From a virus, in the IMG/VR virus record IMGVR_UViG_3300010373_000066, positions 1-45,508 of that record: 45,508 nt of DNA; one strand, 5' to 3'. Positions within the stretch are counted from its first letter, which is position 1. Every line of letters begins with the position of its first letter. Of this stretch, positions 1 to 31,393 are shown piece by piece. The notes under the pieces were generated by a model. The model did not search any database. It saw nothing but the letters and a program-made list of their open reading frames with translations, and was not told the origin of the DNA. The position numbers and the translations under genes are program-made.

Positions 1-93
1 AAGGACAAGAGCTTGAGTATTGCTCTGTATAAAGATGTAGAGGAATTTATAGATAGGGTCGTTGATCTTATGAGTAATAAAGAGAACGCCTAA
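1..93 (+). CDS. C-terminal fragment of small phage protein (partial, cut by window start)
   Basis: An open frame runs from base 1 to a TAA at 91-93 and encodes the last 30 residues, ending in SNKENA. It is identical to the C-terminus of the complete 63-residue gene at 44529-44720. It is therefore the same gene seen again at the other end of the window and not a pseudogene. Function unknown. Confidence 0.85.
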   Translation, partial: KDKSLSIALYKDVEEFIDRVVDLMSNKENA

Positions 94-103
94 TTACAAT
101 AGT
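1..103. repeat. Shared left block, copy 1 (identical to 44628-44730)
   Basis: The first 103 bases are identical to 44628-44730, and the two copies then diverge at base 104 versus 44731. The block carries the end of a small gene and the start of the next spacer. This looks like the same genomic position read twice in a circular assembly rather than two loci. Confidence 0.9.
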
Positions 104-126
104 TAGTCGAAGCGAAAGGAGGTAAT

Positions 127-306
127 ATGAAAGTTAAAATTATCGAAGAAACACAACCGAAAAACTTGGAAAACGAAATTAACGATTTCCTTAGTGGGCT
201 TGAAGGAGAGGTTATTGATATTAAATATGCAATGACAGACTGGGTTTATCCAGGCAGCAGTGAAGATTCATGCTCTCTTTATTCAGCAATGATTATGTAT
301 AAATAA
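127..306 (+). CDS. Cse60-like small protein (cassette A)
   Basis: The 59-residue product starts MKVKIIEE and ends in a YSAMIMY segment, the pattern I associate with the Cse60 family of small proteins from Firmicutes and their phages; its biochemical role is not known to me. Unlike most neighbours it has a strong Shine-Dalgarno site, AAAGGAGG at 115-122, four bases before ATG. It is the first gene of the cassette that is absent from the other end of the window. The family assignment is from memory of the sequence pattern. Confidence 0.7.
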   Translation: MKVKIIEETQPKNLENEINDFLSGLEGEVIDIKYAMTDWVYPGSSEDSCSLYSAMIMYK

Positions 307-318
307 AGAAAGGGGAAT

Positions 319-504
319 ATGTCAAAGAAATTAATTGACCGATATGAGGAATTAGTACCTGGAACAAAAGACAGGCTTAGTAAAACGGATGAAGAAAGAG
401 CCGAAGTGATAGAGAGGTTTTTTAAGACTAAAGCTATAAAATGCAAAGGTAATCTTGAGATTATGTACGGAATGCAAGTAATGGAAGATAAATTTAAGGA
501 ATAG
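319..504 (+). CDS. Small charged hypothetical protein (cassette A)
   Basis: A 61-residue, highly charged and probably helical protein with no recognised domain. A purine-rich stretch (AAGAAAGGGG) lies a few bases before the ATG. One base separates its stop from the next start, so the two are probably co-translated. Function unknown. Confidence 0.7.
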   Translation: MSKKLIDRYEELVPGTKDRLSKTDEERAEVIERFFKTKAIKCKGNLEIMYGMQVMEDKFKE

Positions 505-505
505 T

Positions 506-757
506 ATGAAAACACCAACAATAATGAAATCAAAAGAGTGGAAACGTTTAATAACTAAGAAGCCTAAGTTTAGAGTTACGCCATTCAAGCAAACAAAAGA
601 GGAAAAGGAACAAGCGAAACTGATGGAGAAGTTTATGGACTATCAGTGGGAGCAGGTAGAACCAATCTATCGCCAATTCTGGAAGGACATTATGTTTTAT
701 AAAGATCCAAACGAAGGGAAGATTAAAACATTTTGGGACAAAGATAAGGCTGAATAA
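506..757 (+). CDS. Small basic hypothetical protein (cassette A)
   Basis: An 83-residue Lys-rich protein with several Trp and Tyr residues in its second half (YQWEQVEPIYRQFW). The N-terminal third is strongly basic, which could fit nucleic-acid binding, but no fold is recognised. It starts one base after the preceding stop without a clear ribosome site. Confidence 0.7.
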   Translation: MKTPTIMKSKEWKRLITKKPKFRVTPFKQTKEEKEQAKLMEKFMDYQWEQVEPIYRQFWKDIMFYKDPNEGKIKTFWDKDKAE

Positions 758-768
758 CGTATAGAAGT

Positions 769-1044
769 ATGAGTGATAAAGAAATATTAACAAGAGGACT
801 TGAAAAAGTAATTAACGCAGGATATAGAGGTTTTCAGGACAATTTAGATGAAGGAGTCGAAAATTACCTGGAAGATAATAAATATTTTGCCATCATTTTT
901 CATAAAAGCTTTGCAATAGGAATTTGGGGTCGAGAACCAATAGGCGAAGGATGCAATGACTCTGAATTACCAGAATGGAAATATCGGTTGATGGAAATGG
1001 TTATTCAAGATGACCCTTTAAGATATTTAGGGAATTATGTGTAA
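769..1044 (+). CDS. Hypothetical phage protein with HKSFAIGIWG motif (cassette A)
   Basis: The 91-residue protein has a central IIFHKSFAIGIWG segment and ends with a W-x-x-L-x-x-M, DPLRYL pattern. I recall similar patterns in small uncharacterised proteins of phages and environmental bacteria, with no known activity. It is the last gene of the first-end cassette. The start is the ATGAG form common here, without a Shine-Dalgarno site. Confidence 0.7.
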   Translation: MSDKEILTRGLEKVINAGYRGFQDNLDEGVENYLEDNKYFAIIFHKSFAIGIWGREPIGEGCNDSELPEWKYRLMEMVIQDDPLRYLGNYV

Positions 1045-1127
1045 AAATGGAGGTTCTTTGAAGTAATATGAGTTTATTAGACAAAGCTAAACAAATTGAA
1101 GTAAACAACACAACGGGTGTCTATGAG
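1045..1127. repeat. Shared right block, copy 1 (identical to 45426-45508)
   Basis: These 83 bases equal the last 83 bases of the window. They hold the upstream region and the first 20 codons of the gene at 1068. The match runs to the very end of the window, as expected if the sequence re-enters the circle here after the alternative cassette. Confidence 0.9.
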
Positions 1128-1295
1128 ATTACCGATGAGGACATAGAATTAGTTATCGCTTATTTTAATGGCGAAATTAATACAGTTCAGTTGCGTAAAG
1201 TTACAAACCGTGAAGGCGTACAGGTTTATTCCTATATGGTCAGGTGCTTGAGAAGCGCATGGCAAAAAAGAATGATCGGTAAGTTGAGCGCATAA
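1068..1295 (+). CDS. Small hypothetical protein downstream of the variable cassette
   Basis: A 75-residue protein starting MSLLDKAKQIEV and ending with basic residues. Its start region recurs at the window end, so it follows both cassettes. The upstream GGAGG (1049-1053) is about 14 bases from the ATG, too far for a standard site. No domain recognised. Confidence 0.75.
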   Translation: MSLLDKAKQIEVNNTTGVYEITDEDIELVIAYFNGEINTVQLRKVTNREGVQVYSYMVRCLRSAWQKRMIGKLSA

Positions 1296-1314
1296 AAGAC
1301 GACCTTATTGAGAT

Positions 1315-1548
1315 ATGAATAAAAAATTTGGAAAATGGTTCAAGGAGAATATAATTAGAATATTTGTTGTAATTACTTTTTTGTTAGTAATTTATATCGT
1401 TATCACACTCCCTTTTACGTACGGAGAGTACAAAACATTTGATGATAAAGGTAATCTTTTATATTGCAAGGGTGACTGGAAATATTGTACTGCACCAGAG
1501 GAATTATCAGATTGTAAAACAGTATATAGAAATATAAAAAATAAATAG
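1315..1548 (+). CDS. Single-span small membrane protein
   Basis: The 77-residue product has a basic N-terminus followed by one long hydrophobic segment (about residues 13-34) and a polar C-terminal part with three Cys residues. This suggests an N-in membrane anchor with an outside domain that could form a disulphide. No family recognised. The spacer before the ATG lacks a ribosome site. Confidence 0.7.
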   Translation: MNKKFGKWFKENIIRIFVVITFLLVIYIVITLPFTYGEYKTFDDKGNLLYCKGDWKYCTAPEELSDCKTVYRNIKNK

Positions 1549-1569
1549 AGCCTAATTACATTGATTAGT

Positions 1570-2247
1570 ATGAGTGAAAAGATAGAATTTCGATACGAAA
1601 TTACAAACATAAAAGAAATAAAACACTGGACAAGTAGAGGTAAAAAGCATACTGAAATTGAAATGGAATCGGCTGGTGGTTTTGCTTTACCCGTTCATTT
1701 TAAGGCACAGGTAGGCGATGAAATCGAGGTCTACATGTGGGGAAGCAGAATAGTAGGTCTATTTGTAAAAAAGGTATGTGTTTATTTTCAAAGCAAAAAA
1801 GCATTAGATGAAGAAAATAAGGCATATTCAGAAAAAAGGGAAAAGGAACAAAATGAAGATTTTGCTAAAAATAAAGACAAATATGATAAATGGTTTTCTG
1901 AAATGCCGGAAGTTTTCCAAAGACGTATTCAAGTATTTAGAGATAATGGGAAAAATTGGCGAGTTGAGTGGGAAGGCTACGAAATGTCTTCATGTAGAGA
2001 AGCTATCAATATCGCAAAACATTATCCGACTAAAGAACTACTTGAAAAGTTCCGCAAAGAAGATAGCGAGAGTTATGGAAAAACAGATTATAAACCTTTG
2101 GATGACGGACATTCAGGGAATACGTGGGGTATGGCTAAGCGATTGGCATGGTGGTATGTAACCGAACCTGAAAACGTATTCAAAGAGCATGGAGCAGCAA
2201 CACCGTTAGTAGGATGCGAGGAGTATGGTTGCATACATCCACGCTGA
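1570..2247 (+). CDS. Hypothetical protein with beta-rich N-terminus and coiled middle
   Basis: A 225-residue protein. The first 75 residues alternate hydrophobic and polar positions like a small beta-barrel. A charged helical stretch follows (about 80-115), and the C-terminal half has a WRVEWEGYEMSS segment and a final Cys pair. The ATGAG start at 1570 is preferred over an upstream TTG because it matches neighbouring genes. Function unknown. Confidence 0.75.
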   Translation: MSEKIEFRYEITNIKEIKHWTSRGKKHTEIEMESAGGFALPVHFKAQVGDEIEVYMWGSRIVGLFVKKVCVYFQSKKALDEENKAYSEKREKEQNEDFAKNKDKYDKWFSEMPEVFQRRIQVFRDNGKNWRVEWEGYEMSSCREAINIAKHYPTKELLEKFRKEDSESYGKTDYKPLDDGHSGNTWGMAKRLAWWYVTEPENVFKEHGAATPLVGCEEYGCIHPR

Positions 2248-2262
2248 ATAAGAATCACTTTT

Positions 2263-2466
2263 ATGAGCGAAACAGTACATAAATATATATTTTTTATAAC
2301 AGGATATATGGGGATAATTGCAGCAATATTTTGTGTGCCGTCATTTATTATTGCAATTTTTACTAATCAATTAAGCAGTGCGTTTGTTCCTGAATGGACA
2401 ATAGTTGGTTTAGTGTTAGGAGCAATTATCGGAACATTTATGGCTAATAGGCGTAAAAATAAGTGA
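2263..2466 (+). CDS. Two-span small membrane protein
   Basis: A 67-residue protein with hydrophobic segments at about residues 7-32 and 43-60, a short loop between them and a basic RRKNK tail. This is a helical hairpin inserted in the membrane. A holin-like role is possible but unsupported, because holin candidates sit with the endolysin elsewhere. Confidence 0.7.
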   Translation: MSETVHKYIFFITGYMGIIAAIFCVPSFIIAIFTNQLSSAFVPEWTIVGLVLGAIIGTFMANRRKNK

Positions 2467-2474
2467 TTTTAAGT

Positions 2475-2636
2475 ATGGATTGGAAAATGATAGCATCAAT
2501 TTCATTAGGTTTTGCGATAGGCTTATATATGGGTGGAGTTATTGCAGATTTTTTGAATAAAAAGGTTTACGAAGCAAATATCAGATTGATTGCTGAATTG
2601 AAAAGGAAAATAGAACTTTTGGAACAAGCCGAATAA
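2475..2636 (+). CDS. Small membrane-anchored coiled-coil protein
   Basis: The 53-residue product has one hydrophobic segment (about residues 5-26) followed by a heptad-like charged helix ending ELKRKIELLEQAE. The layout is a single anchor plus short coiled coil. It starts nine bases after the previous stop without a Shine-Dalgarno site. Confidence 0.6.
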   Translation: MDWKMIASISLGFAIGLYMGGVIADFLNKKVYEANIRLIAELKRKIELLEQAE

Positions 2637-2651
2637 TGTGGCATTTTAAAC

Positions 2652-2834
2652 ATGGAAATTAGAATAGATATTAAAGGATATGTAGATAAACGAGCTAAAG
2701 AATTGGCTGAGGAATGGAGTAAAAAACCTATTGGTTCTACAGCGAGGTCTTATGAATCGTTTCGCACAGATGCTTTAATTGAATATCTAGAGAAAGTCGA
2801 GCGTAATAATCGAACATTTTATGGACGGAGGTGA
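2652..2834 (+). CDS. Small hypothetical protein
   Basis: A 60-residue charged protein, probably helical, with no recognised motif. The end of the gene contains the GGAGG that serves as ribosome site for the next gene, so the pair is likely translationally linked. Confidence 0.65.
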   Translation: MEIRIDIKGYVDKRAKELAEEWSKKPIGSTARSYESFRTDALIEYLEKVERNNRTFYGRR

Positions 2835-2837
2835 ATT

Positions 2838-2996
2838 ATGAGTTCTAGTCGAAGTAATAATTTAAAAGAAATGATAATAAATAATCCTAAAGCCCAGGAG
2901 CGTATACAGATGAAGCGAATAGATCACGATGTCAAAAAAGAGATGAAAGGTTTCTGTAGCGATCCGTTTTGTTGGTATTGCGAACGTAAAATATGA
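2838..2996 (+). CDS. Small Cys-containing hypothetical protein
   Basis: A 52-residue product ending FCSDPFCWYCERKI. The three closely spaced Cys residues could form part of a metal site. A good ribosome site (GGAGGTGA) precedes the ATG. Its TGA overlaps the next ATG as ATGA, a coupling arrangement. Confidence 0.6.
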   Translation: MSSSRSNNLKEMIINNPKAQERIQMKRIDHDVKKEMKGFCSDPFCWYCERKI

Positions 2997-3109
2997 CAAC
3001 GGCAGAAAAAATAGTAAAAGAACAATTACAAGAGCTTAGAGATAATACCGAAAGGATTAAGGAGTTAGCTCAGGAAATCAAAAAAGAGTGTAAAAATAGA
3101 AGTAATTGA
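2993..3109 (+). CDS. Short helical hypothetical protein
   Basis: A 38-residue open frame that starts on an ATGA overlap with the previous gene. It encodes one amphipathic Glu/Lys-rich helix with regularly spaced Leu and Ile. It may be a small coiled-coil partner. It is the last gene before the structured non-coding element. Confidence 0.5.
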   Translation: MTTAEKIVKEQLQELRDNTERIKELAQEIKKECKNRSN

Positions 3110-3116
3110 GCATTGA

Positions 3117-3208
3117 TGGCCGCAGCTGACACAGCTTATGTGGTAAGACTCTAACTCATGTCAGCGGGAAGGAGTCGAGTTGTTAGCATAAGTTAGCAGC
3201 GGCGACCA
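3117..3208 (+). ncRNA. Candidate structured RNA with possible pseudoknot
   Basis: This gene-free stretch is GC-richer than its surroundings and folds by hand into nested stems. P1 pairs 3119-3127 with 3195-3203 (GCCGC/GCGGC plus GCT/AGC around an A-A mismatch). P2 pairs 3135-3140 with 3187-3192 (CTTATG/CATAAG). P3 pairs 3147-3157 with 3172-3181. The apical loop contains TGTCAGC (3159-3165), a perfect complement of GCTGACA at 3125-3131, so a pseudoknot or an alternative fold is possible. The 3' end reads GACCA. No tRNA T-loop is present and I recognise no known family. Confidence 0.45.
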
Positions 3209-3237
3209 TGAGTGCGTAATTACTCAGAAACTTAAGC

Positions 3238-3366
3238 ATGAAGAAAGATAAATCTAAAAAACAAAAGAGGATAAAATGTGATTGGTGCGAGTGGTTCCGT
3301 GAAACAAACCCTTATGGAGTATGTCCGATACATGCTAGTAAAAATCATGAAGCTAAACGTGCCTAA
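3238..3366 (+). CDS. Small basic zinc-finger-like protein
   Basis: The 42-residue product has a strongly basic first third, then CDWC and CPIH pairs followed by another His. This spacing could bind one zinc ion. A short TGAGT/ACTCA hairpin lies just upstream at 3209-3227. Function unknown; nucleic-acid binding is a reasonable guess. Confidence 0.6.
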   Translation: MKKDKSKKQKRIKCDWCEWFRETNPYGVCPIHASKNHEAKRA

Positions 3367-3380
3367 GTACAAACGATTTT

Positions 3381-3545
3381 ATGAGTAAATGTAAACATAT
3401 TTGGATTCAGAAAATTGAAACGAATGGTCATGCAGCCTACAACATGTATCATGGCTTTGAGTTTTATTGTCAGAAATGTTTAATTGCAATATTCAAATAC
3501 TTAGATAAATATGAGAAAGAAGAGTTTAAAAACGAGGTTGAATAA
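3381..3545 (+). CDS. Small CxxC/CxH hypothetical protein
   Basis: The 54-residue protein begins MSKCKH and has a central YCQKC pair, followed by a hydrophobic and a charged helical tail. The C-x-H plus C-x-x-C set is a likely zinc site. The start is the ATGAG form without a ribosome site. Confidence 0.6.
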   Translation: MSKCKHIWIQKIETNGHAAYNMYHGFEFYCQKCLIAIFKYLDKYEKEEFKNEVE

Positions 3546-3557
3546 CCAAACGTTATT

Positions 3558-3737
3558 ATGACAAAAGAAGTATTTGATAATTACAGATTTTCAGTTAATA
3601 CAGAAGTCTATCTTGATGGATGGATTCGTGTAACAGAAGTAGATTTTGAGAAAGGAAAGATTGGTGTTACACGAGGATATTATCTTCATTATAGCGAATA
3701 TGGAGATATTCGAGAAAAAACTAAGAATGTCTACTAA
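3558..3737 (+). CDS. Small beta-rich hypothetical protein
   Basis: A 59-residue protein rich in alternating Val, Tyr and charged residues, suggesting a small beta-sheet fold. The spacer upstream forms a perfect six-base hairpin (AATAAC/GTTATT, 3541-3557) whose right arm ends directly at the ATG. No family recognised. Confidence 0.6.
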   Translation: MTKEVFDNYRFSVNTEVYLDGWIRVTEVDFEKGKIGVTRGYYLHYSEYGDIREKTKNVY

Positions 3738-3748
3738 CCAATATCATT

Positions 3749-4069
3749 ATGAGTGATGAGATTTGTAAACATTGTGGAGTACCTATAAAGATTGGAGCAA
3801 ATAATAAGATTTGTGACCATCTTTATTATCCCGATAATTGTTCTGTTTGTAGTAAGGTAACTGTACGAGATGATCGTACAATTGTAGTTTCACCAATGGA
3901 GACTATAAGAGAGACAGCAGCGATTAAGCTGTTTGGGGAAAATCTTTACCAAGATTTTGAGAAAGGCATTACAGAGAAAAATGTTTATTTTTTGGAAGCT
4001 ATGCTTGGAGTACCAAGAAAATTTTGGTTAAATTTACAGAATAATTATGACGAACTTAAAAAAGTATGA
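3749..4069 (+). CDS. Zinc-ribbon-like hypothetical protein
   Basis: The 106-residue product has CKHC near residue 6, then C-D-H and a CSVC pair, giving a probable zinc ribbon in the first 40 residues. A mainly helical part follows. Its end overlaps the next gene by four bases. Such small zinc proteins are frequent in this genome. Confidence 0.7.
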   Translation: MSDEICKHCGVPIKIGANNKICDHLYYPDNCSVCSKVTVRDDRTIVVSPMETIRETAAIKLFGENLYQDFEKGITEKNVYFLEAMLGVPRKFWLNLQNNYDELKKV

Positions 4070-4323
4070 AAGATTTATTTTATCGTTTTAAATATTTATT
4101 TCAAGGAAACTTCTGGGCGTTCTGGCATTATGAGAGATTAGGCTTTACAGAACTTCGTTATCGTGGTAAGCCAATTATCTTAAGAGATGATATGCCCAAA
4201 GACGAATTTCTAATCCATCAAAAGGATGGCACATGGAAATTGTTTAATTTAAAAACTAGACGAGTTGGCAAGTTAAAGCCAGTCCATAAAATGATTATAA
4301 AGACTGAGGCTATGCGAGGCTAA
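4066..4323 (+). CDS. Small basic hypothetical protein
   Basis: An 85-residue basic protein with aromatic residues near the N-terminus and no recognised motif. It overlaps the previous gene as ATGA, so translation is probably coupled. Confidence 0.65.
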   Translation: MKDLFYRFKYLFQGNFWAFWHYERLGFTELRYRGKPIILRDDMPKDEFLIHQKDGTWKLFNLKTRRVGKLKPVHKMIIKTEAMRG

Positions 4324-4341
4324 CGCTGAATAATGTGGGTA

Positions 4342-4353
4342 ATTCGGATGTGA
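4342..4353 (+). repeat. 12-bp inverted repeat, left arm
   Basis: ATTCGGATGTGA here is the exact reverse complement of TCACATCCGAAT at 4778-4789. The two arms bracket two complete small genes, 4357-4515 and 4517-4765. Confidence 0.7.
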
Positions 4354-4356
4354 AAT

Positions 4357-4515
4357 ATGAAATTTAAACTTTTAGATCATAATTATTCAGACATAGGAGA
4401 GCGTGAGATCAACACGTTAGAAGATTTGGAGAAATTACAAGAAGAATATGATAACGAGTTAATCGTTAATTTCAAAGAAAAGTCTATTCTTATTTATGAC
4501 GGGTATATAGAGTAA
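4357..4515 (+). CDS. Small acidic hypothetical protein inside inverted repeats
   Basis: A 52-residue acidic protein with an EDLEKLQEEYDNEL helix followed by a short beta-like tail. It begins four bases after the left inverted-repeat arm and ends one base before the next ATG. Function unknown. Confidence 0.6.
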   Translation: MKFKLLDHNYSDIGEREINTLEDLEKLQEEYDNELIVNFKEKSILIYDGYIE

Positions 4516-4516
4516 T

Positions 4517-4765
4517 ATGTATAAATTTACAAAAGAAACAAAAAGAGCAGGGATGAGTAAATGTCCAAAATGTCCTATTGCGGTTTGGCCTACTCAAAAT
4601 TATTGCGAGGGATGCGGATATAATCTAAAAAAGATAACTGAAGAAGACATTAAAGTTATTCTTGATAATCTCCATAAAGATTTCAACATAACTGAAATTG
4701 AAGTTGACGGAGTAGCTTATCGTTGGCCTATGAATATACATGACGAGAATTGCAGGTCTAACTGA
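4517..4765 (+). CDS. Zinc-ribbon hypothetical protein inside inverted repeats
   Basis: The 82-residue product has a CPKC pair and a CEGCGY pair about 16 residues later, the classic spacing of a treble-clef or zinc-ribbon domain. The rest is mixed and acidic. It lies inside the 12-bp inverted repeats. Confidence 0.65.
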   Translation: MYKFTKETKRAGMSKCPKCPIAVWPTQNYCEGCGYNLKKITEEDIKVILDNLHKDFNITEIEVDGVAYRWPMNIHDENCRSN

Positions 4766-4777
4766 GACTGTTTAGCC

Positions 4778-4789
4778 TCACATCCGAAT
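4778..4789 (-). repeat. 12-bp inverted repeat, right arm
   Basis: TCACATCCGAAT pairs perfectly with the arm at 4342-4353. It sits in the spacer before the next small gene, beside a second short dyad (AATAA/TTATT) that ends at the next ATG. Confidence 0.7.
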
Positions 4790-4802
4790 AAGTAGGATTA
4801 TT

Positions 4803-4901
4803 ATGGATTACGGAGGAAATGAAAACCCCATTATAGGGTTAATGATAGTAAGTACACTGATAATTTCAGGATTATCATTTGTGTATTTTATGACAAGATA
4901 G
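4803..4901 (+). CDS. Very small membrane protein
   Basis: A 32-residue product, nearly all of it one hydrophobic segment after a short acidic N-terminus. The upstream spacer has a five-base hairpin ending directly at the ATG. Single-span micropeptide; function unknown. Confidence 0.5.
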   Translation: MDYGGNENPIIGLMIVSTLIISGLSFVYFMTR

Positions 4902-4910
4902 TATATAAAT

Positions 4911-5114
4911 ATGAGAAAGCTGGATGAGGCCATGTCTGAACTAGAATGTGATGGTTGTTTAGAAAGTTTGCGAAATGGTGATAAAACCAAGTTTATCAAC
5001 TGGCCTTCTGAAAGGCCACCAACAATAGGGATTTATCATGATAAGTGTTATAGAAAAATCAGAGAATTTATAAAAACATTGCATGAAGCAAACAACAACC
5101 GAACTTATCAATGA
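4911..5114 (+). CDS. Small Cys-containing hypothetical protein
   Basis: A 67-residue protein with CDGC near residue 14 and a distal His/Cys pair (YHDKC), a plausible zinc-binding set. It overlaps the next gene by 32 bases. Confidence 0.65.
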   Translation: MRKLDEAMSELECDGCLESLRNGDKTKFINWPSERPPTIGIYHDKCYRKIREFIKTLHEANNNRTYQ

Positions 5115-5376
5115 ACGTGCAACCGTTCGTCTTTGTTTTCTGTTATGGAAGAAATATAAAGGGTATGGACAAGAATTTCCTCATGTGGGACATTATCTTG
5201 AGTTTATTGATGCTTTTAGCACTAATCATAAGGTGGAGATGTCAGATGGTAGATTTTTCTCTCACCTGCTCTTAAATAATGAATCAAGCATTGCATGGGA
5301 AGGGCAAGAGCTGATAGACATCCTTCATTATGAGGCATGTGATATTATTAAGAAACGCTTGACTCGTCATCGATAA
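5083..5376 (+). CDS. Hypothetical protein
   Basis: A 97-residue protein of mixed helical character with no recognised motif. Its ATG lies inside the preceding gene. No in-frame start nearer that gene's end was seen, so the 32-base overlap is accepted. Confidence 0.65.
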   Translation: MKQTTTELINERATVRLCFLLWKKYKGYGQEFPHVGHYLEFIDAFSTNHKVEMSDGRFFSHLLLNNESSIAWEGQELIDILHYEACDIIKKRLTRHR

Positions 5377-5418
5377 GTCATGTATATTTAGCTTATTGGA
5401 AGGATGTGATGATTTTTT

Positions 5419-5679
5419 ATGTTCACTAATAGAGCAAAAATATTACTCGGGACAATTATAGCTGTTATCGTTGTGGGAGGTCTTTCTTATTCTCAATATA
5501 CGACTGACAAACAAGTCGCAATTCTTACAGCGCACCAAGAACCAGTCGTTGTTACTAAGACAGTTATTGTGACACCAACTAGTGTACCGACTGCAACACC
5601 AGCAGCCACAGTTAAGAAAACTGTTACTATTATCCCAACAAGAACAAGTTCAGCATCTGTCACGAAAGGAGTGAAATAA
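5419..5679 (+). CDS. Secreted or anchored Thr/Pro-rich protein
   Basis: The 86-residue product has a basic start, one hydrophobic segment (about residues 7-24) and then a low-complexity tail of Val, Thr, Pro and Ser. The tail resembles a cell-wall-spanning or stalk-like linker outside the membrane. A ribosome site (AAAGGAG) for the next gene lies near its end, and its stop overlaps the next ATG as TAATG. Confidence 0.65.
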   Translation: MFTNRAKILLGTIIAVIVVGGLSYSQYTTDKQVAILTAHQEPVVVTKTVIVTPTSVPTATPAATVKKTVTIIPTRTSSASVTKGVK

Positions 5680-6215
5680 TGGATAAGGTTATTCAAATAA
5701 AATGTAAAGGAGCTACTGAAGTATCCTTAGATGAACTTGTTGTTTTGCAGGGAAATCTAAAAGAACTGTCAGAAGAAAACTATACAAAGCTTCATGATCT
5801 TATTGTCTCAAAAGGTTTTGATAGTCCCATTCAGATCTGGGAAGATCCTAATGGAATAAAACAAATTCTTGATGGTACACAACGAGTCCGAGTACTGCTT
5901 AAGCTTAGAGAAGAAGGATATACTATTCCCCTTATTCCTGCTGATATTATTTATGCAGAAAATAAAAAGGATGCTAAAGAACGACTTCTTACTAAGGTTT
6001 CTCAGTATGGTGAAGTGACAGAAGAAGGATTGTATGAATTTACCAATGAAGAGGATAGTATCATCGAGCCAGACTTTTCAGAACTCTTAGATATTCCAGG
6101 TATGGACTTCAATAAAGATGATGTAGAAGTAAAAGCAGATACCTTGAATGCACCAAGCGAGCCAAAACAAATAACCTGTCCGAATTGCCAGCATACATTT
6201 ATCCCTGAGAAATAA
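5679..6215 (+). CDS. ParB/Srx-fold nuclease-like protein with C-terminal zinc ribbon
   Basis: A 178-residue protein. The first 120 residues resemble the ParB N-terminal (sulfiredoxin-like) domain: a pocket-forming strand, then LDGTQRVRVLLKL, equivalent to the G-x-x-R signature of ParB boxes, and a helical KERLLTKVSQYGEV stretch. The last 20 residues carry CPNC followed by a final His, a probable half zinc site. In phages such stand-alone domains often precede the small terminase, as here, and may act in DNA binding, CTP binding or nicking. I cannot tell which. Confidence 0.7.
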   Translation: MDKVIQIKCKGATEVSLDELVVLQGNLKELSEENYTKLHDLIVSKGFDSPIQIWEDPNGIKQILDGTQRVRVLLKLREEGYTIPLIPADIIYAENKKDAKERLLTKVSQYGEVTEEGLYEFTNEEDSIIEPDFSELLDIPGMDFNKDDVEVKADTLNAPSEPKQITCPNCQHTFIPEK

Positions 6216-6216
6216 T

Positions 6217-6324
6217 ATGAAGTGGTTATTTACTCTCTTTAAGAAAGAAAAGAAATACAATAAACATGTATATTTTGCATTAAGTAATCAGCTATATCAA
6301 CAAAGCATATGGACGAGCAGATAG
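6217..6324 (+). CDS. Possible 35-residue basic peptide
   Basis: A short open frame starts two bases after the ParB-like gene and overlaps the start of the small terminase by 16 bases. It encodes a basic, aromatic peptide (MKWLFTLFKKEKK at its start). It fills an otherwise empty gap and has the local ATGA-type start, but no other support. Confidence 0.4.
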   Translation: MKWLFTLFKKEKKYNKHVYFALSNQLYQQSIWTSR

Positions 6325-6998
6325 AACAATCATCAACAACAAGTGACAGTGAAACTGTTCAGATAACTATTGATCCATCAATGGTAAATACACCACAGAC
6401 TAAACTAAATCCCCCACCTACTACTTCATCTATCACGTGTCAGACTGATGGATGTAATCAATTATTTACTGATCTGAATATTTTTCAAGAACATGTAAAG
6501 TCAAAGCACGGAGATATACAACGTAATGAAAAAGGACAATTTGCAGAGGGCAATAAAGAAAGTGTAGGGAATGATGGAGGAAGACCATGTGAATTTTGCA
6601 AGAGGAAAGAAGAAATACTTAAGGCAACGAAGGAATATCTTGATCCATTTTTGAAAACGATTGAAAGTGAAAAACCCAGAGAACCTTTAAAGGAAATCCT
6701 TGCATTAAAGATTGGTGTTTCGGATAGAACTATTGAGCGTTGGATTGAGAAAGACACAACCGATAGTGATGAGGATCATTCCGAGTTCTGTCATCTGATC
6801 TCTTTACTCATGACTTGTGCGAAAGCATATAATTTGAGAAAGCTTAATGGCCGATATAATGCACGAGGTGCAGAGTTTAAATTAGCAAGAATGCACGGCT
6901 TGATTGAAACATCTAAGACAGTTCACGCAGGAGATATTAATGAGCCATTACAGATAATTATCACTGAGGAAGAGGATAAGAAAAAAGATGGAGAATGA
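6309..6998 (+). CDS. terS: Terminase small subunit with C2H2 zinc finger
   Basis: A 229-residue protein directly in the packaging region. The GQFAEGNKESVGNDGGRP segment matches the GQF-x-x-GN...GGRP signature common near the start of small terminases. It is followed by a CEFCKRK pair, a DNA-binding helix pair (SDRTIERWIEK) and a C-terminal KLARMHGLIE part. Residues about 44-66 form a canonical C-X4-C-X12-H-X4-H finger with the usual Phe and hydrophobic positions, which is not a usual part of this family. The role would be recognition of the phage DNA for packaging. Confidence 0.75.
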   Translation: MDEQIEQSSTTSDSETVQITIDPSMVNTPQTKLNPPPTTSSITCQTDGCNQLFTDLNIFQEHVKSKHGDIQRNEKGQFAEGNKESVGNDGGRPCEFCKRKEEILKATKEYLDPFLKTIESEKPREPLKEILALKIGVSDRTIERWIEKDTTDSDEDHSEFCHLISLLMTCAKAYNLRKLNGRYNARGAEFKLARMHGLIETSKTVHAGDINEPLQIIITEEEDKKKDGE

Positions 6999-7251
6999 AC
7001 CCCAACTCGTTATTTGCCCTAACTGCACCAAGAATAAACCAAACGCATTTCTTGGCTCTCTGAATGTAGATGGTTATTTTATTGTGAGACGAGGGCATTT
7101 CAGAGAGAATAGAAACGCTACATATAAAGCTTCAAATCAGATCATGATAGCAGCAGAAGATTATTCAATTGTCTGTGAATGTGGGTATTATATCCATGTG
7201 AAATCTGGTAGAATAGTGACTGATGCGTATAAATCCATGATTAATGGCTAA
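6988..7251 (+). CDS. Small zinc-ribbon protein
   Basis: An 87-residue product with CPNC near residue 9 and CECGYYIHV near residue 63, two Cys pairs that would make one zinc site in a beta-rich ribbon. It overlaps the gene before it (11 bases) and after it (8 bases). It could be a DNA-binding accessory of packaging, but this is only by position. Confidence 0.7.
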   Translation: MENEPQLVICPNCTKNKPNAFLGSLNVDGYFIVRRGHFRENRNATYKASNQIMIAAEDYSIVCECGYYIHVKSGRIVTDAYKSMING

Positions 7252-8125
7252 AAAGGCAGTTATTACAGGAGCAAACGGATTTTTAGGCAAACACCTGTGG
7301 GATACACTCTCAGACCGTGGTATTGAGCCAGTTGCCATTGACAGACATGATCTTTATATAGATGTCCCCGATCTTACACGAATTCTCTTTCATCACAAGC
7401 CTGATTATATCTTTCATTTAGCTGCATATGGCAATCATTCTCACCAGACTGATTCAACGAAAGCTATCATGGCGAATTATTTTGCCATATATAATTTACT
7501 TAAGGCATCAGAGTTTTTAGACTTTACAGCGTTTATTAATGTAGCAACAAGTTCAATGTATGGAAGGCAAATGACAATGATGTCTGAGAACACTACCGTA
7601 CTTGAGCCTGATACCTTTTATGCAGCAACAAAAGCAGGTGGAGTTCATCTAGCACGAGCGTTTGCAAAACAATATAATCTTCCAATTTGTTCTGTAGTTC
7701 CCTTTAGTGTGTATGGGGAGGGAGAAGCAGACTTTAGATTTATTCCAACACTTGTACGTCACTTAATGACCGAAGAGAAGATGCCTGTTGTTTTAAAACC
7801 ACAACATGATTGGATTTGTGTTGATGACTTTATGAATGGTGTTATGAGTGTTGTTGATAATATTGATAAAGTGCAAGGTGAAACAATAAATATTGGGACA
7901 GGGATCGCAACACGTAATAAGGAAGTGATTAGTCAGTTAGAGAAAATATCTGGTAGGAAACTTCGGATGGAGAAGACATATAAAGAGCAACCTCATCATT
8001 CATCTGTATGGTATGCAGATAATACAAAACTTAAATCATTAGGTTGGCAACAGAAGACATCTCTTCATGAGGGACTGAAACGGTGTTGGGAGTATTATTC
8101 AAAGAAATATGGCACAGAACGTTAA
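7244..8125 (+). CDS. NAD-dependent epimerase/dehydratase (extended SDR)
   Basis: The 293-residue protein has a Rossmann start with GANGFLG at residues 9-15, an acidic loop after strand two, Ser103/Ser104 and the catalytic Tyr126-x-x-x-Lys130 (YAATK). This is the full active-site set of extended short-chain dehydrogenases acting on nucleotide sugars, such as UDP-glucose 4-epimerase or GDP/dTDP-sugar reductases. The exact substrate cannot be read. The two transketolase halves follow downstream and glycosyltransferases lie further on, so it probably helps make an activated sugar for virion or cell-surface glycans. Confidence 0.85.
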   Translation: MAKKAVITGANGFLGKHLWDTLSDRGIEPVAIDRHDLYIDVPDLTRILFHHKPDYIFHLAAYGNHSHQTDSTKAIMANYFAIYNLLKASEFLDFTAFINVATSSMYGRQMTMMSENTTVLEPDTFYAATKAGGVHLARAFAKQYNLPICSVVPFSVYGEGEADFRFIPTLVRHLMTEEKMPVVLKPQHDWICVDDFMNGVMSVVDNIDKVQGETINIGTGIATRNKEVISQLEKISGRKLRMEKTYKEQPHHSSVWYADNTKLKSLGWQQKTSLHEGLKRCWEYYSKKYGTER

Positions 8126-8459
8126 TGAATTACATAAGGCGACCTTAAGTAAACGAGATAGTTTTGTGATTTGGATAACAGATCGTGTAGGAACATTTGA
8201 GTGTGCCGTATTATTTGCAGGGATTGGTATTGCAAGTATCACAGGTATTTTAACTGGGAACTATATCTTAGGGACTGCCGTGGGGGCGTTTTCATCCTAC
8301 TTCCTACAGTTAGTGATGTTGCCTTTAATTAGTATTAGACAGAAATTAGATCAGAGACATGCTGAATTACTGGCTGATGAGACACATAGAAATGTTATGC
8401 GTAGTGAGTATGAGATAGAAGAAATACATAAGAAGCTGGATCAGTTGTTAATAAAATGA
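8109..8459 (+). CDS. DUF1003-like membrane protein
   Basis: A 116-residue protein with two hydrophobic segments (about residues 31-50 and 55-78) and a charged helical tail ending in a heptad-like LDQLLIK. The ITDRVGTFECAVLF entry to the first span and the RHAELLADETHRN region resemble the DUF1003 family of inner-membrane proteins of unknown role. It lies inside the sugar-enzyme cluster with overlaps on both sides. A holin role is less likely by position. Confidence 0.6.
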   Translation: MAQNVNELHKATLSKRDSFVIWITDRVGTFECAVLFAGIGIASITGILTGNYILGTAVGAFSSYFLQLVMLPLISIRQKLDQRHAELLADETHRNVMRSEYEIEEIHKKLDQLLIK

Positions 8460-9100
8460 AGAATCAGGATTTAAAGCGTAGAATCATAGATATTAGTTAT
8501 AAATTAAAACTAGGACATATCGGCAGTTGTCTGGTGGCTGTTGATAAGATAGCTGAGATTTATGATAAAAAAGAACCTGATGAGAGATTTGTTTTATCAA
8601 GTGGTCATGCACACTTGGCACATCTGGTGGTTAAAGATAAAGATGAGAATCTTTCTAAGCAGTACGGAATTGATTTTGCCATGGAAATGGTTAAGGACTA
8701 TGGCATTCACTGTGATCGTCAGGCGGGTTGTGATGTATCAACAGGCTCACTAGGACATGGTATAGGGATTGCCCTTGGTATGGCGTTAGCAGATCGGACG
8801 AAGAATGTGTATTGTATAATCTCTGATGGAGAAACATCTGAAGGCTCAGTTTGGGAGGCATTGCGGATTCAGAAAGAACAGTATGTAACCAACCTTCTTG
8901 TGTATTGTGTCATAAATGGATGGGGTGCGTATAAAGAGATTAACTCAATAGAATTATCAAATAAGCTAGAATATTATTCATGGTGTACTCCTATCCATGT
9001 CAATATGGGGATGTATCCTAAATGGTTACAGAGCCAAGAGGGACATTATGGTGTACTGGATAAAAAACGATATGATGAGGTAATGGAGATATTACAATGA
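8456..9100 (+). CDS. Transketolase, N-terminal (thiamine diphosphate-binding) subunit
   Basis: A 214-residue protein equal to the first domain of transketolase. It has GHIGS (20-24), LSSGHAH (48-53), GSLGHG (97-102) and the thiamine diphosphate motif SDGE (123-126) with the partner Asn at 154, 30 residues after the Asp. These sites bind cofactor diphosphate and metal. The catalytic glutamate domain is encoded separately at 9552, so the enzyme would be a two-subunit assembly. It could move two-carbon units in the pentose phosphate pathway or in building an unusual sugar; the neighbours favour the second. Confidence 0.85.
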   Translation: MKNQDLKRRIIDISYKLKLGHIGSCLVAVDKIAEIYDKKEPDERFVLSSGHAHLAHLVVKDKDENLSKQYGIDFAMEMVKDYGIHCDRQAGCDVSTGSLGHGIGIALGMALADRTKNVYCIISDGETSEGSVWEALRIQKEQYVTNLLVYCVINGWGAYKEINSIELSNKLEYYSWCTPIHVNMGMYPKWLQSQEGHYGVLDKKRYDEVMEILQ

Positions 9101-9279
9101 TTAGACAAATAGCAATTAAACTAGGCTTATGGGAAGAGGTAGAGTATGTGACTGAAATTACTCAAGAGGAGAAAGAGTTCTTACTTAAAGCGCTTAAACA
9201 TTACTGTGATCCTTGCAAGAGGTGGTTTGCTGATACACGAGGTAAATTGATGCATGATAGACATAGACATAAAGAATGA
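9097..9279 (+). CDS. C2H2 zinc-finger microprotein
   Basis: A 60-residue product whose last 25 residues form C-X2-C-X12-H-X4-H with Phe and Leu in the canonical core positions, like a eukaryotic-type classical finger. The N-terminal half is an acidic helix. It overlaps its neighbours by four bases on both sides and sits between the two transketolase subunits. DNA or RNA binding is a reasonable guess. Confidence 0.65.
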   Translation: MIRQIAIKLGLWEEVEYVTEITQEEKEFLLKALKHYCDPCKRWFADTRGKLMHDRHRHKE

Positions 9280-9506
9280 GAAAAGGTTGTCCCATGTGTG
9301 GGAAATTTACATCTGAAGTATGGCGCATAGCATATATAACATGGGTTTGTAATAGATGTTTAAAAGATATAGAAAAATTTAAAAACAAGCTTAAGAAAAT
9401 AAATGCTGAAATAAAATATCTTAATGAGCCACGAAGTACTATCGAGAGATTGAAGGAAGAATGTTTTGAGAAATATGGAGCTAAATTTATACGAGAGAAT
9501 AAATAA
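9276..9506 (+). CDS. Zinc-ribbon plus coiled-coil protein
   Basis: A 76-residue protein with CPMC at the start and CNRC about 20 residues later (one zinc ribbon), followed by a basic helix and a mixed tail. It is the second small zinc protein between the transketolase subunits and ends just before a hairpin-rich spacer. Confidence 0.65.
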   Translation: MRKGCPMCGKFTSEVWRIAYITWVCNRCLKDIEKFKNKLKKINAEIKYLNEPRSTIERLKEECFEKYGAKFIRENK

Positions 9507-9508
9507 CA

Positions 9509-9553
9509 GTTAACGACATAAGGGGGGGGAATTTCGTTAACGCCTCCCCTTAT
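9509..9553 (+). promoter_or_regulatory. Interlocked inverted repeats and G8 tract ending at the next start codon
   Basis: The spacer holds two overlapping dyads. GTTAACG at 9509-9515 pairs with CGTTAAC at 9535-9541. ATAAGGGG at 9518-9525 pairs with CCCCTTAT at 9546-9553, which includes the first two bases of the ATG. The order is a-b-a'-b', so the two hairpins exclude each other in full form and could act as a translational switch. A run of eight G (9522-9529) lies inside and could slip. Confidence 0.5.
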
Positions 9554-10028
9554 GAGAAAAGAATTTGCATCTCATCTACATAAGCTGATGTCAGAAAATG
9601 ACGACATCTGGCTTATTACTGCTGATCTTGGATTTGGTCTCTTTGATAAAATCCGTCAAGATTTCCCTGATAGATTTATTAACACAGGTGCAGCGGAACA
9701 AGCAGCCTCAGACATCTGCGTTGGTCTTGCATTAGTTGGCAAGATACCCGTCATGTATTCTATAACCCCATTCCTTCTCTATCGTTGTTTTGAAACCTGG
9801 AGAACCTATGTCAATCACGAAAAAATAAAGGTTATCTTAGTTGGAAGTGGGAGAAATGATGATTATAAACATGATGGATTTAGTCATGATGCAAGTGATG
9901 ATAGTAGTTTCATGGTAAGCTTGCCTAATTTTATTTCCACATGGCCTAAGAATTCTAAGTTTGCAATTAAAGCTCTTGAGACCGCTATTAATGATACTAG
10001 CCCTTGGTATATCAATCTAACCCGATGA
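9552..10028 (+). CDS. Transketolase, C-terminal (pyrimidine-binding) subunit
   Basis: A 158-residue protein equal to the central Pyr domain of transketolase. It has the catalytic Glu49 in NTGAAEQ, the ITADLG start, the SITPFLLYRCFE stretch that packs on the cofactor ring and a DGFSHDASDD loop like the DGPTHQ loop of the family. The third domain of full-length enzymes is missing, as in many split forms. It pairs with the subunit at 8456. Its stop overlaps the large terminase start as ATGA. The hairpin spacer upstream suggests translational control. Confidence 0.85.
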   Translation: MRKEFASHLHKLMSENDDIWLITADLGFGLFDKIRQDFPDRFINTGAAEQAASDICVGLALVGKIPVMYSITPFLLYRCFETWRTYVNHEKIKVILVGSGRNDDYKHDGFSHDASDDSSFMVSLPNFISTWPKNSKFAIKALETAINDTSPWYINLTR

Positions 10029-11356
10029 GTACAATTACCCTGCCTATTAAAAACTTTGCTGCACAGCAAAAGGTTTTTGATTCAAAAGCCCGGTATGTCG
10101 TTGTTCCAAAAGGACGACGGTTCGGTCTCACAACTGGTGCAAAGAATGATCTTATTAAAGGTGCTCTCAGACGTGAGTATACAAGTGCTCTTTGGGGTGA
10201 TGTGGTGAACTCAAACATTGAGAAATATATTCAACGGCTCTTCTTGCCAACTCTTCAGAAGCTTCCATCACATGTTTGGTCATGGACGAAAGATCCACAT
10301 ACGATCCAGATCTATGACTCGTACATTGATTTCAGGTCAGCAGAACGTCCAATGAGTTGGGAGGGATTTAAATATGACTATGTGTTCTTAAATGAAGCAG
10401 GTATTATTCTTCTTAATCAATATCTTTGGGAGAATGCTGTACGTCCTATGATGTGGGATAATCCTAAATCTCGTGCTATCTTTGGTGGCACACCTAAGCT
10501 TGGATGTGTGGTATTTAAAGAACTGTATGATAGAGCACTTGATCCGGGGCAACCTGATTATGAAGGCTTTAAATTCTCCTCTTTCGATAATCCCTACATG
10601 CCACGACAGCTTATTATGGATGATATTAAATCTATGCCACAGCGAGTGGTACAACAAGAGATCTATGGTGATTTCTTGGATGATGATGGTGTGGTATTTC
10701 GGGGTGTCGATCACGTGGCAATTCTTGATCCGAATAAGACTCCTGAGCCAAATTATGGACATAATTATGTCATGGGTGCAGATATTGCAAAGCTTGTCGA
10801 CTGGACGGTTCTCACAGTCTATGACCGAACAGATAATAGACAAGTCGCACAACTTAGATTTAATGGGCTTGAATATCCAGCAATCAGAGCAAGAATCAAG
10901 CATTTATCTGATAAATATAACCGTGCACTTGTGATGCTTGATAGTACAGGAGTTGGAGAACCAACATATGATGATTTAGTGCAAGAAGGCGTGCCAGTAC
11001 AGCATATTCACTTGACAAATGAGTTGAAAAAGCAGATTATTGAAAAGCTCAGTAGTTGGATAGAACTTAAGCGTATTTATATGCTTAACCTTGATGAAAC
11101 CAAGCGGGAACTGAAGCAGTTTACGTATGACATCTCGGAGAAAACTAAACGAGTTATCTATGGAGCACCTATTGGATTTCATGACGATATTGTCATCTCA
11201 CATGGTTTAGCTATCTGGGGAATGCAGCCGGTTATCATGGAGAAACTGTTTGAGGAGATGACAGTGATTCAGCAAGATCTTGCCATGAAGCGAGGTCAAG
11301 GGCCACAGGATGACTGGCAAGAAGTAGAGGATATACAATATGGAGGATACGAATAA
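10025..11356 (+). CDS. terL: Terminase large subunit
   Basis: A 443-residue packaging motor. The N-terminal ATPase shows a Walker A-like KGRRFGLTTG (29-38), a Walker B-like YDYVFLNEAG and the coupling motif FGGTPKLG. The C-terminal RNase H-fold nuclease shows three acidic positions: MGADIAKLVDW, VMLDSTGVG and GFHDDIV. It cuts concatemers and drives DNA into the prohead with the portal. The start at 10025 gives the ATGAG form and an ATGA overlap with the previous gene. An upstream in-frame start would add seven residues and is not favoured. Confidence 0.92.
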   Translation: MSTITLPIKNFAAQQKVFDSKARYVVVPKGRRFGLTTGAKNDLIKGALRREYTSALWGDVVNSNIEKYIQRLFLPTLQKLPSHVWSWTKDPHTIQIYDSYIDFRSAERPMSWEGFKYDYVFLNEAGIILLNQYLWENAVRPMMWDNPKSRAIFGGTPKLGCVVFKELYDRALDPGQPDYEGFKFSSFDNPYMPRQLIMDDIKSMPQRVVQQEIYGDFLDDDGVVFRGVDHVAILDPNKTPEPNYGHNYVMGADIAKLVDWTVLTVYDRTDNRQVAQLRFNGLEYPAIRARIKHLSDKYNRALVMLDSTGVGEPTYDDLVQEGVPVQHIHLTNELKKQIIEKLSSWIELKRIYMLNLDETKRELKQFTYDISEKTKRVIYGAPIGFHDDIVISHGLAIWGMQPVIMEKLFEEMTVIQQDLAMKRGQGPQDDWQEVEDIQYGGYE

Positions 11357-12595: not shown

Positions 12596-12625
12596 TTTAC
12601 AAAATGGATACTTTACGTGTACACT
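12596..12625 (+). promoter_or_regulatory. Promoter for portal gene (TTTACA-18-TACACT)
   Basis: TTTACA at 12596-12601 and TACACT at 12620-12625 are separated by 18 bases. The portal ATG begins six bases after the -10 box, so transcription would start at or very near the ATG. The spacing and -10 match three other promoters in the window. Confidence 0.65.
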
Positions 12626-12631
12626 TGGTAC

Positions 12632-14938
12632 ATGAGCGATAATCGTATCAACTCAGCCATTCTTCATTCTCCTAATTCTACACACGTTGGACGACTCATT
12701 GAAGATATGTCCTTCCAGGCAATCATGAGACGAAGGTCTTGGGAACGCCGGTGGTACAACACCAACTGGTTTGATGATGGACTCCACTTTAGAATGGTCA
12801 ATAATCGTACAGGACAAATTATTGATCATGTACAACGCTTTGCTGGATATATTGAACGTGCTATTCCTAGAGCAAGTAAACAAGTACGTGGTATCGGTGC
12901 ATTACTTTTAACTCCTAACTATTATCCCGTTGTGTATCCAGAACGAGTAACAATGGAAGACTTCAGAGACAAAATGTCTGGTCAAATAGACATGCTTCGG
13001 TATCGTATGGCTATGGAGAAAGCCAAGGAGAGCGCCCGAAAACAAGGCATCTTCTTAACAACTACTTGGGAGGATGAACTGGAGCTTGAGACAAAACTCA
13101 TGGATATGATCCTTCTGACTGCAAAAAATGGCATATCTTATCTTCAGATCTATACTGATCCGATCACCAAACGCATTAAAGGTGATGTATTGGACGCCTT
13201 TGATCTTATCTGTTATGGAGATGTCAGAGAGCTTGATGATCTACCATTCATTACTAAAACTGCCTCATGGGACTTTAATGAAGTCATGTCTAGTGAGTTA
13301 TTTGATGAGGATAAAAAGAAAGATTTATCACCTGACAATCTCTATGCCACCAGTGAAATTAAAGAAGCATACATGCGAGCTCGGTATGGCATGAAGCTTA
13401 ATGCTCAGAATTTAAATTCAATCATTGTTAAGGAGACCTTTATGAAGGAATATCTTTCAGATGATAATTGGGATCAAGCAGTTAAGCTTGGCTCTGATAC
13501 AGGTGCAATGGAAGGAAAGAGTAAGGGCGATATGATTATGCGCCATCCCTTCTCAGCAGGTGGAGTATGTTTGAAAGATGAATATATCCCCTATGATGAA
13601 TATCCTTTTGCAGAGCTTCGGTTTGAGTCAGGCTATCTTTATCAAGTGCCCCTCATGGAGAGATTTATTCCGTTAAACAAATCCCAAGATATTGTGGTCA
13701 CTCGTATTGAGAAATGGATTAATACTATGGTGACTGGTATTTATATGACCAGAAAGGGAGAGAATCTCCAGATTGCAAATATTCCAGGAGGACAACAAGT
13801 GAAATATGAACAAGCGCCACCAGAGCAGATGAATATCTCTAGTGTTGGTTCAACGCCATTTCAGTTTATGGAAATGACAGATAAATATATTGAGGAGCAA
13901 GGTATTTCCAGTAATAACATTAGTCAATTGCCAAATAATATTGCAAACAATACTATTGAGAATATTCAACAGCAGGAGTATACAAACATGCGCTTTGCTA
14001 CAGCACGGCTTAAGAAGTGTGTGACTCGTGTGGGAGAGCTTATCTTAGAGCGTGCGGATAAAGATTATGTCAGACCAGTTGAAATCTCATACAAGGAAGA
14101 TAAAGAAGTGAAATATTTCTCTGTTATTGGTTCAAGAGGTCATAAAGCACACAAACGAATTGGAGCAAAACTTCCTGATGATATTGTGACTCTTAATCAT
14201 AAACTCAAGATCAGAGTTGAAGCAGACCAAGGATTTGGTTTGACCCAAGACGGGAGACGACAAGCGCTTGATGTTCTTATGAAGAATATGACCGTACTCT
14301 ATCAGGAAGGGTTCTTATCTGCTGATGCAATGGCTATGCTTGTCAAGCGGTTTGTTGAGGAATATGGTTACGGTGCAACAGAGGAGTTCATGGAAGCTGT
14401 AGAAAATGGAGTAACCCAAGGACAGATGAGTAATAACCAGATACAACAGCTCAAGATTGCCGTCTTACAAGTTCTTAAGGATCTGAAGATGACACCTGAC
14501 GGACTTGAGGGACTCCTTACTAAACATAATGATGCGAACTTGCAAACAACTAAGCTTGGTGTACTTCAGACAATGAAAGAAGTTGGATTATTAGATCAGT
14601 TAAACCAAGAAGGTAAAACAAATATTGAGGTTGATGATTTAGTTAAACTCTATAAAGATGCACCAGATGATGTTAGAAGACAAATTGAACAGCTTCTTGG
14701 CATGAAACCATCAAGTGCAGAACCAATTAGTCCATCACAAGCGGATAGTGCTCATAAATTACATGAGGTTGTTAAAGGACAGCATGAAATGTCTCAAACT
14801 GAAAAACAAACTGAACTAGCAGAGCGTCAACAGGAACATGCTGAGAGTCAATCAGAAGCAGAAAATCAAAATACCCAACAAGAGCTAGAGATTAAGAAAC
14901 AGGCAGCAAGTAGACCGACACCAACAGCGAGTCAGTAG
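12632..14938 (+). CDS. Portal protein
   Basis: A 768-residue protein, the size of podovirus-type portals, placed between terminase and scaffold as usual. It has a mixed N-terminal half with many aromatic residues, a long central helical part around NIANNTIENIQQQEY typical of the portal stem region, and a Gln/Glu-rich C-terminal tail from about residue 700. As a dodecamer it would form the DNA gate and bind terminase and adaptor. ATGAG at 12632 is chosen over the upstream GTG because the promoter -10 box lies between them. Confidence 0.85.
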   Translation: MSDNRINSAILHSPNSTHVGRLIEDMSFQAIMRRRSWERRWYNTNWFDDGLHFRMVNNRTGQIIDHVQRFAGYIERAIPRASKQVRGIGALLLTPNYYPVVYPERVTMEDFRDKMSGQIDMLRYRMAMEKAKESARKQGIFLTTTWEDELELETKLMDMILLTAKNGISYLQIYTDPITKRIKGDVLDAFDLICYGDVRELDDLPFITKTASWDFNEVMSSELFDEDKKKDLSPDNLYATSEIKEAYMRARYGMKLNAQNLNSIIVKETFMKEYLSDDNWDQAVKLGSDTGAMEGKSKGDMIMRHPFSAGGVCLKDEYIPYDEYPFAELRFESGYLYQVPLMERFIPLNKSQDIVVTRIEKWINTMVTGIYMTRKGENLQIANIPGGQQVKYEQAPPEQMNISSVGSTPFQFMEMTDKYIEEQGISSNNISQLPNNIANNTIENIQQQEYTNMRFATARLKKCVTRVGELILERADKDYVRPVEISYKEDKEVKYFSVIGSRGHKAHKRIGAKLPDDIVTLNHKLKIRVEADQGFGLTQDGRRQALDVLMKNMTVLYQEGFLSADAMAMLVKRFVEEYGYGATEEFMEAVENGVTQGQMSNNQIQQLKIAVLQVLKDLKMTPDGLEGLLTKHNDANLQTTKLGVLQTMKEVGLLDQLNQEGKTNIEVDDLVKLYKDAPDDVRRQIEQLLGMKPSSAEPISPSQADSAHKLHEVVKGQHEMSQTEKQTELAERQQEHAESQSEAENQNTQQELEIKKQAASRPTPTASQ

Positions 14939-15130: not shown

Positions 15131-15169
15131 CCTCACCTTTTTGTGTACATTTAGCCTCAATTTTGGTGC

Positions 15170-15199
15170 TTGACATGAATACATTTTATACTCTACACT
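15170..15199 (+). promoter_or_regulatory. Promoter (TTGACA-18-TACACT) before the capsid operon
   Basis: TTGACA at 15170-15175 and TACACT at 15194-15199 are 18 bases apart, the same geometry as at 33994. Transcription would begin near 15206 and meet an intrinsic terminator ending at 15321 before reaching the scaffold gene. Confidence 0.75.
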
Positions 15200-15234
15200 A
15201 GTTCTAATGTTAGATTTTTGAAAGGAATCTCAGC

Positions 15235-15264
15235 AGAAATTAGTACGCATCTAGCGAACTGATC
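15235..15264 (+). repeat. Conserved pre-terminator module, copy 1
   Basis: AGAAATTAGTACGCA followed after a few bases by AGCGAACTGATC matches 27187-27215, where the corresponding parts read AGAAATTGGTACGCA and AGCGAACCGATC. In both copies the second part is the left arm of an intrinsic terminator. Confidence 0.7.
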
Positions 15265-15321
15265 TTGAAAGATAAGAAGCTCTTCGGAGGTTTTTATTCC
15301 GATTGACCAGTTCGTTTTTTT
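15255..15321 (+). terminator. Intrinsic terminator with nested TTCG hairpin
   Basis: CGAACTG (15255-15261) pairs with CAGTTCG (15308-15314), followed by seven T. It lies only 48 bases before the scaffold start, so scaffold expression needs read-through or a promoter between the T run and the ATG. Confidence 0.8.
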
Positions 15322-15337
15322 GTTTACAAGCATACGG

Positions 15338-15369
15338 CTCTAGCAATAGAAACCGATGAGACTAGACAT
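15338..15369 (+). promoter_or_regulatory. Start-proximal element shared with 31544-31572
   Basis: CTCTAGCAATA (15338-15348) and GACTAGACAT directly before the ATG match CTCTTAGCAATA and GACTAGATAT before the fibre gene at 31573. In each case an nAnACT hexamer sits six bases before the ATG, like the -10 boxes of the leaderless promoters. No good -35 is seen, so an activator or phage factor may be needed. Confidence 0.5.
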
Positions 15370-31273: not shown

Positions 31274-31359
31274 GAAAACGTATACGGAAAGCGTACCCTT
31301 GTTTTTATAACAGGTATCCTTTGACTCTAAGCAAGATCTTAGAGGGATAAGAAAAGGGA
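31274..31359 (+). other. Gene-free stretch with hairpins between 31260 and 31393
   Basis: No gene is seen in 31260-31393. GTATACGGAAAGCGTAC (about 31279-31295) forms a short hairpin and loosely resembles the CGC/GCG hairpin modules at 15244 and 27194. It is followed by TTGTTTTT. CTCTAAG and CTTAGAG then form a seven-base hairpin near 31325-31343. It may contain a weak terminator and a leader. Confidence 0.4.
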
Positions 31360-31393
31360 TTCGTTAACACTCATATTATTTATAGGAGAAGCG

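Follow-up and report, generated by a model that had tools for sequence, protein, structure and literature searches.

A long orphan RNA hairpin between two small co-directional genes of a phage

What kind of element occupies the longest complete gap in a cluster of closely packed small phage genes? The window, by which we mean the whole 45.5 kb stretch analysed, is an IMG/VR virus record that encodes terminase, portal, adaptor, DnaB-like and DnaG-like genes and an integrase, with small + strand genes packed closely across bases 1-9500. The longest complete gap within this cluster lies at 3110-3237 and contains no ORF of at least 30 aa. An earlier note on this DNA proposed a structured RNA with pseudoknot potential at 3117-3208, and rightly described that stretch as gene-free and GC-richer than its surroundings (about 0.51 versus 0.37 for the window). 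The analyses below identify an orphan RNA-type hairpin that is real and statistically strong and that is likely to have an ordinary role in mRNA processing or insulation.

Setting, extent and stability of the hairpin

The hairpin fills the gap between two small co-directional + strand ORFs and is itself non-coding (Table 1). No Pfam match was found for the upstream ORF, and none above the cut-off for the downstream ORF. The folded unit spans 124 nt (3101-3224), starting AGTAATTG and ending TAATTACT, and the 92-nt interval originally singled out (3117-3208) is a cropped part of it. Because the fold reaches 3224, the GACCA at 3204-3208 is not a 3' end, as had been thought, but sits within the 3' arm. 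The nested stems described earlier are present, and the overall shape of the MFE fold is one long coaxial hairpin. An inverted repeat (3101-3128/3197-3224; 28 nt, 79% Watson-Crick complementary) frames the earlier interval and forms the basal stem, in which 24 of the 28 positions are paired with probabilities of 0.98-1.0, in runs of 8, 5, 4, 3 and 4 separated by isolated 1x1 mismatches (A-G, G-G, C-A and A-G). A 4/2 internal loop lies between the basal stem and a 9-bp inner stem, and six G-U pairs are held in the + strand fold. At its foot, the 5' arm takes in AGT AAT TGA from the end of the upstream ORF.

The unit folds with an energy of -51.8 kcal/mol, and none of 8,000 dinucleotide shuffles was as stable (mean -32.4, sd 3.4, lowest -47.8 kcal/mol; z about -5.7); 200 shuffles gave a z of -5.6. 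The earlier interval alone reached only -2.65. The untrimmed gap, chosen without regard to the fold ends, still gave -4.8, so the result is independent of the choice of ends. The basal inverted repeat (score 18) is the best in the window, but a score of 18 is also attained in at least 5 of 30 shuffles of the window; the significance therefore comes from the basal and inner stems combined. Measured per base, this is the most structured gap in the window. The - strand folds less well (-39.2 kcal/mol, a difference of 12.6 kcal/mol), a bias that points to an RNA transcribed along the genes; selection on such an RNA would be expected to produce this asymmetry, which is no more than suggestive. Folding statistics and strand asymmetry thus back the earlier proposal of a structured RNA element.

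Table 1 Features of the hairpin and its setting in the window
Feature	Coordinates	Strand	Remarks
Upstream ORF, 38 aa	2993..3109	+	last two codons and stop are the first hairpin bases
Basal stem, 5' arm	3101..3128	+	1x1 mismatches at 3109, 3115, 3120, 3124
Pseudoknot strand 1, GCTGACA	3125..3131	+	first four bases in basal stem; not supported
9-bp inner stem, 5' arm	3133..3141	+	pair probability 0.98
Upper part	3142..3185	+	MFE; less certain than the stems below
Asymmetric 5/4 internal loop	3142-3146 / 3182-3185	+	
5-bp stem	3147-3151/3177-3181	+	
4-bp stem, then weak apical loop	3154-3157/3172-3175	+	
Pseudoknot strand 2, TGTCAGC	3159..3165	+	apical region; not supported
9-bp inner stem, 3' arm	3186..3194	+	MFE fold
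Basal stem, 3' arm	3197..3224	+	mismatch partners 3201, 3205, 3210, 3216
Downstream ORF, 42 aa, cysteine-containing	3238..3366	+	start (ATG) 13 nt past the 3' arm
Terminase	10004-11356		
Portal	12617-14938		

Known RNA classes and related phages

The element matches no family in Rfam 15 at the gathering score, and permissive thresholds gave nothing relevant; the suggestion of a novel RNA family is nevertheless unsupported, since no second member was found. Similarly, there is no tRNA fold, as previously remarked, and the impression of a tRNA-like appearance fails. The element has the GACCA string and a GGTA stretch but no cloverleaf, and its GACCA is part of a stem arm; ARAGORN (several modes) and the Rfam tRNA model scored it at or below chance, and 84 of 100 shuffles aligned equally well or better to the five tRNAs compared, arguing against both a tRNA and a tRNA relic. 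The bases past 3224 (CAGAAACTTAAGC) contain no U-run and the locus is absent from the terminator scan; with no T-run after the stem, the hairpin is not an intrinsic terminator. HDV-like, hammerhead and twister candidates were rejected by eye (no P4 or catalytic core) and by an empty Rfam result. The HK022 putL/putR RNAs resemble the element as phage early-region RNAs with stems and internal bulges. However, putRNA measures about 70 nt and is made up of two adjacent stem-loops (PMC9378689), whereas the MFE fold of the 124-nt element is a single coaxial hairpin, and a put antitermination RNA was rejected.

Searching IMG/VR with TerL and the transketolase domain yielded about 95 contigs of a wider phage group, the nearest of which (L002) shares 60% TerL identity with the window. 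A nucleotide-sugar epimerase and a transketolase split over two genes (window 7244-10028; TPP-binding part 8456-9100, pyrimidine-binding part 9552-10028) are retained just upstream of terL across this group. No host was found by searching GTDB, where TerL had distant relatives only and the portal protein had none. None of the related contigs searched had a significant sequence or covariance-model match to the element. Exact 16-18-mer scans of IMG/VR recovered no homologue, only chance matches in seemingly unrelated coding sequences; phage and plasmid records gave empty or chance matches; and a one-sequence covariance model, of limited power without a known positive, recovered only the element itself when run on the window, on 45 complete related records and on about 100 loci. 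With no second member, covariation speaks neither for nor against the fold.

A gap in a comparable place in L002 (2771-2893), some 7 kb before terL, is also well folded (z -4.0 with chosen ends, -3.2 with flanks). Its basal stem is interrupted by single mismatches and starts in the upstream stop codon, the inside is branched, and its distance to the transketolase-domain gene is 6.6 kb, versus 6.3 kb for the window element. The two have no alignable sequence and no covariance-model score, and the likeness is a parallel, not homology. Possible counterparts in L009, L014, L017/L111/L114, L084/L089, L087 and L122 were rejected, none aligning with the window element; several structured gaps among these relatives either precede another gene or have a T-run at their end, and the L009 fold is insignificant after trimming (z -0.9). 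Rfam returned nothing relevant for nine related loci.

A proposed processing or insulating hairpin and its alternatives

The explanation that we tentatively favour is that the hairpin is an intercistronic processing or insulating element of the T7 R1.1/RNase III kind. The analysis shows its position, fold, strand bias and missing terminator U-run; we infer that it is transcribed, cleaved and functional. The long hairpin would lie within a polycistronic + strand mRNA of the small-gene cluster, precisely in the interval from one gene's stop codon to the next gene's start codon. There its near-continuous double strand would serve as a substrate for a host RNase III-type enzyme, would protect mRNA ends and insulate, or would do both, giving the two flanking cistrons separate stability and translation. 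PMC5371410 uses a minimum RNase III target size of about 22 nt of double strand; the 24 paired positions of the basal stem exceed it, if only loosely given the four single mismatches, and the preferences of the host enzyme may differ. In position and shape, the element most resembles the T7 early mRNA processing sites: R1.1, an RNase III site, is a hairpin that lies between two early genes and carries a 4/5 internal loop (PMC6121014). The element likewise lies, non-coding, between adjacent co-directional cistrons, has an asymmetric internal loop (5/4, above the 9-bp stem) and lacks a terminator U-run. Unlike T7 R1.1, with which no sequence similarity is known, it has a long mismatch-broken basal stem that starts in the upstream coding sequence, and its cleavage is a prediction; it is also about twice as long, which counts against this reading. 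As a control, stretches of T7 taken around RNase III sites, at coordinates that are partly presumed, gave z values of -1.5 to -4.5, weaker than that of the element in the same test (-5.5). Two further points count against a processing site: the phage does not make wide use of such hairpins, as the remaining gaps of the small-gene cluster contain nothing comparable, and with no homologue there is no covariation to support it. A processing hairpin would show how a packed phage mini-gene operon without obvious terminators may partition its mRNA.

The main rival, which we consider unlikely but credible, is a stand-alone structured non-coding RNA, in which the basal stem would be a processing stem and the inner part (3129-3196) would be a trans-acting RNA with targets in the host or the phage. 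The strong fold, the elevated GC content, the lack of genes and the well-folded L002 gap are all consistent with such an RNA. Against this, the L002 and window sequences neither align nor score with the covariance model, no promoter-like site lies close upstream, the element has no terminator of its own and Rfam offers no match. Were the element a stand-alone RNA, it would point the way to an unknown phage RNA, but a second member is needed first.

We give little credence to a MITE-like relic, left behind by a small palindromic mobile element and now without a role as RNA. A long imperfect inverted repeat filling an intergenic gap fits this reading, but the window has one copy only, neither phage and plasmid records nor 45 related contigs contain a relative, the + strand is the more stable, and no clear target-site duplication was seen.

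It is similarly improbable that the element is a switchable, pseudoknotted regulator, in which GCTGACA would alternate between CAGC (basal) and TGTCAGC (apical) and control the downstream gene or the polymerase in a put-like manner. The seven-base complement reported earlier is exact, and a comparable 7-bp crossing helix is present in only about 3.5% of shuffles; yet the crossing helix exceeds chance weakly at most and has a stronger stem as competitor, GCTG (3125-3128) pairing with CAGC (3197-3200) in the nested fold with a probability of 0.98. Keeping both strands unpaired costs 6.3 kcal/mol, since nested folding then reaches -45.5 kcal/mol at best, and the pseudoknot helix returns -9.7 kcal/mol before the pseudoknot penalty, which usually uses up such an energy difference. 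The nested fold is preferred, no Shine-Dalgarno-like sequence of the downstream gene is sequestered, and the single coaxial hairpin departs from the put architecture. The pseudoknot may be an alternative state but is not supported.

Chance or neutral secondary structure has an equally low probability: the inverted repeat alone is unexceptional for a 45-kb sequence and conservation evidence is absent, but no shuffle matched the entire unit and no other gap in the window is as structured per base. Less probable still is a new class of phage-encoded structured RNA with two stable states, one a closed hairpin and the other a loop-to-5'-flank pseudoknot, whose fast-evolving counterparts would occupy the corresponding gene-cluster slot in relatives such as L002 (2771-2893).

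Further putative structured RNAs in the window and its relatives

A second structured intergenic stretch in the window (31283-31429; z -3.1) has a mismatch-broken basal stem and a branched interior, and sits upstream of gene 31573-32589 and a RelA/SpoT-domain gene. The latter (32586-33287; Pfam PF04607) directly follows an unknown 338-aa phage gene, and its product may be either an alarmone synthetase or a toxin with that fold. Window 15131-15369, which leads into the first gene beyond the portal region, comprises a sigma70-like promoter (TTGACA...) followed by a short leader and a T-run terminator, after which comes the gene. A like arrangement is found in L002 (14385-14587), L009 (14080-14380), L011 (9380-9540), L013 (8120-8250) and L014 (18180-18330), and CTAATGTTAGATTnTTGAAAGGA is common to the window and L002. 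This post-portal arrangement may represent an attenuated leader of the PR'-tR' type or else a small RNA.

Similar structured intergenic RNAs occur in L084 (2135-2303; z -8.9) and L089 (1430-1599; z -6.8); they have no Rfam match, show compensatory stem changes and are followed by a terminator-like hairpin. A long-hairpin leader precedes the MANRRMFS replication-type gene in L017 (655-763) and L111/L114 (5380-5487). Between relatives, its apical loop (GTTATGTTCC / GTTATGTTTGA) and the 5' flank complementary to it (GGAACATAAC / TCAAACATAAC) differ by paired changes, and this loop-to-flank pseudoknot is better supported than that of the window element.
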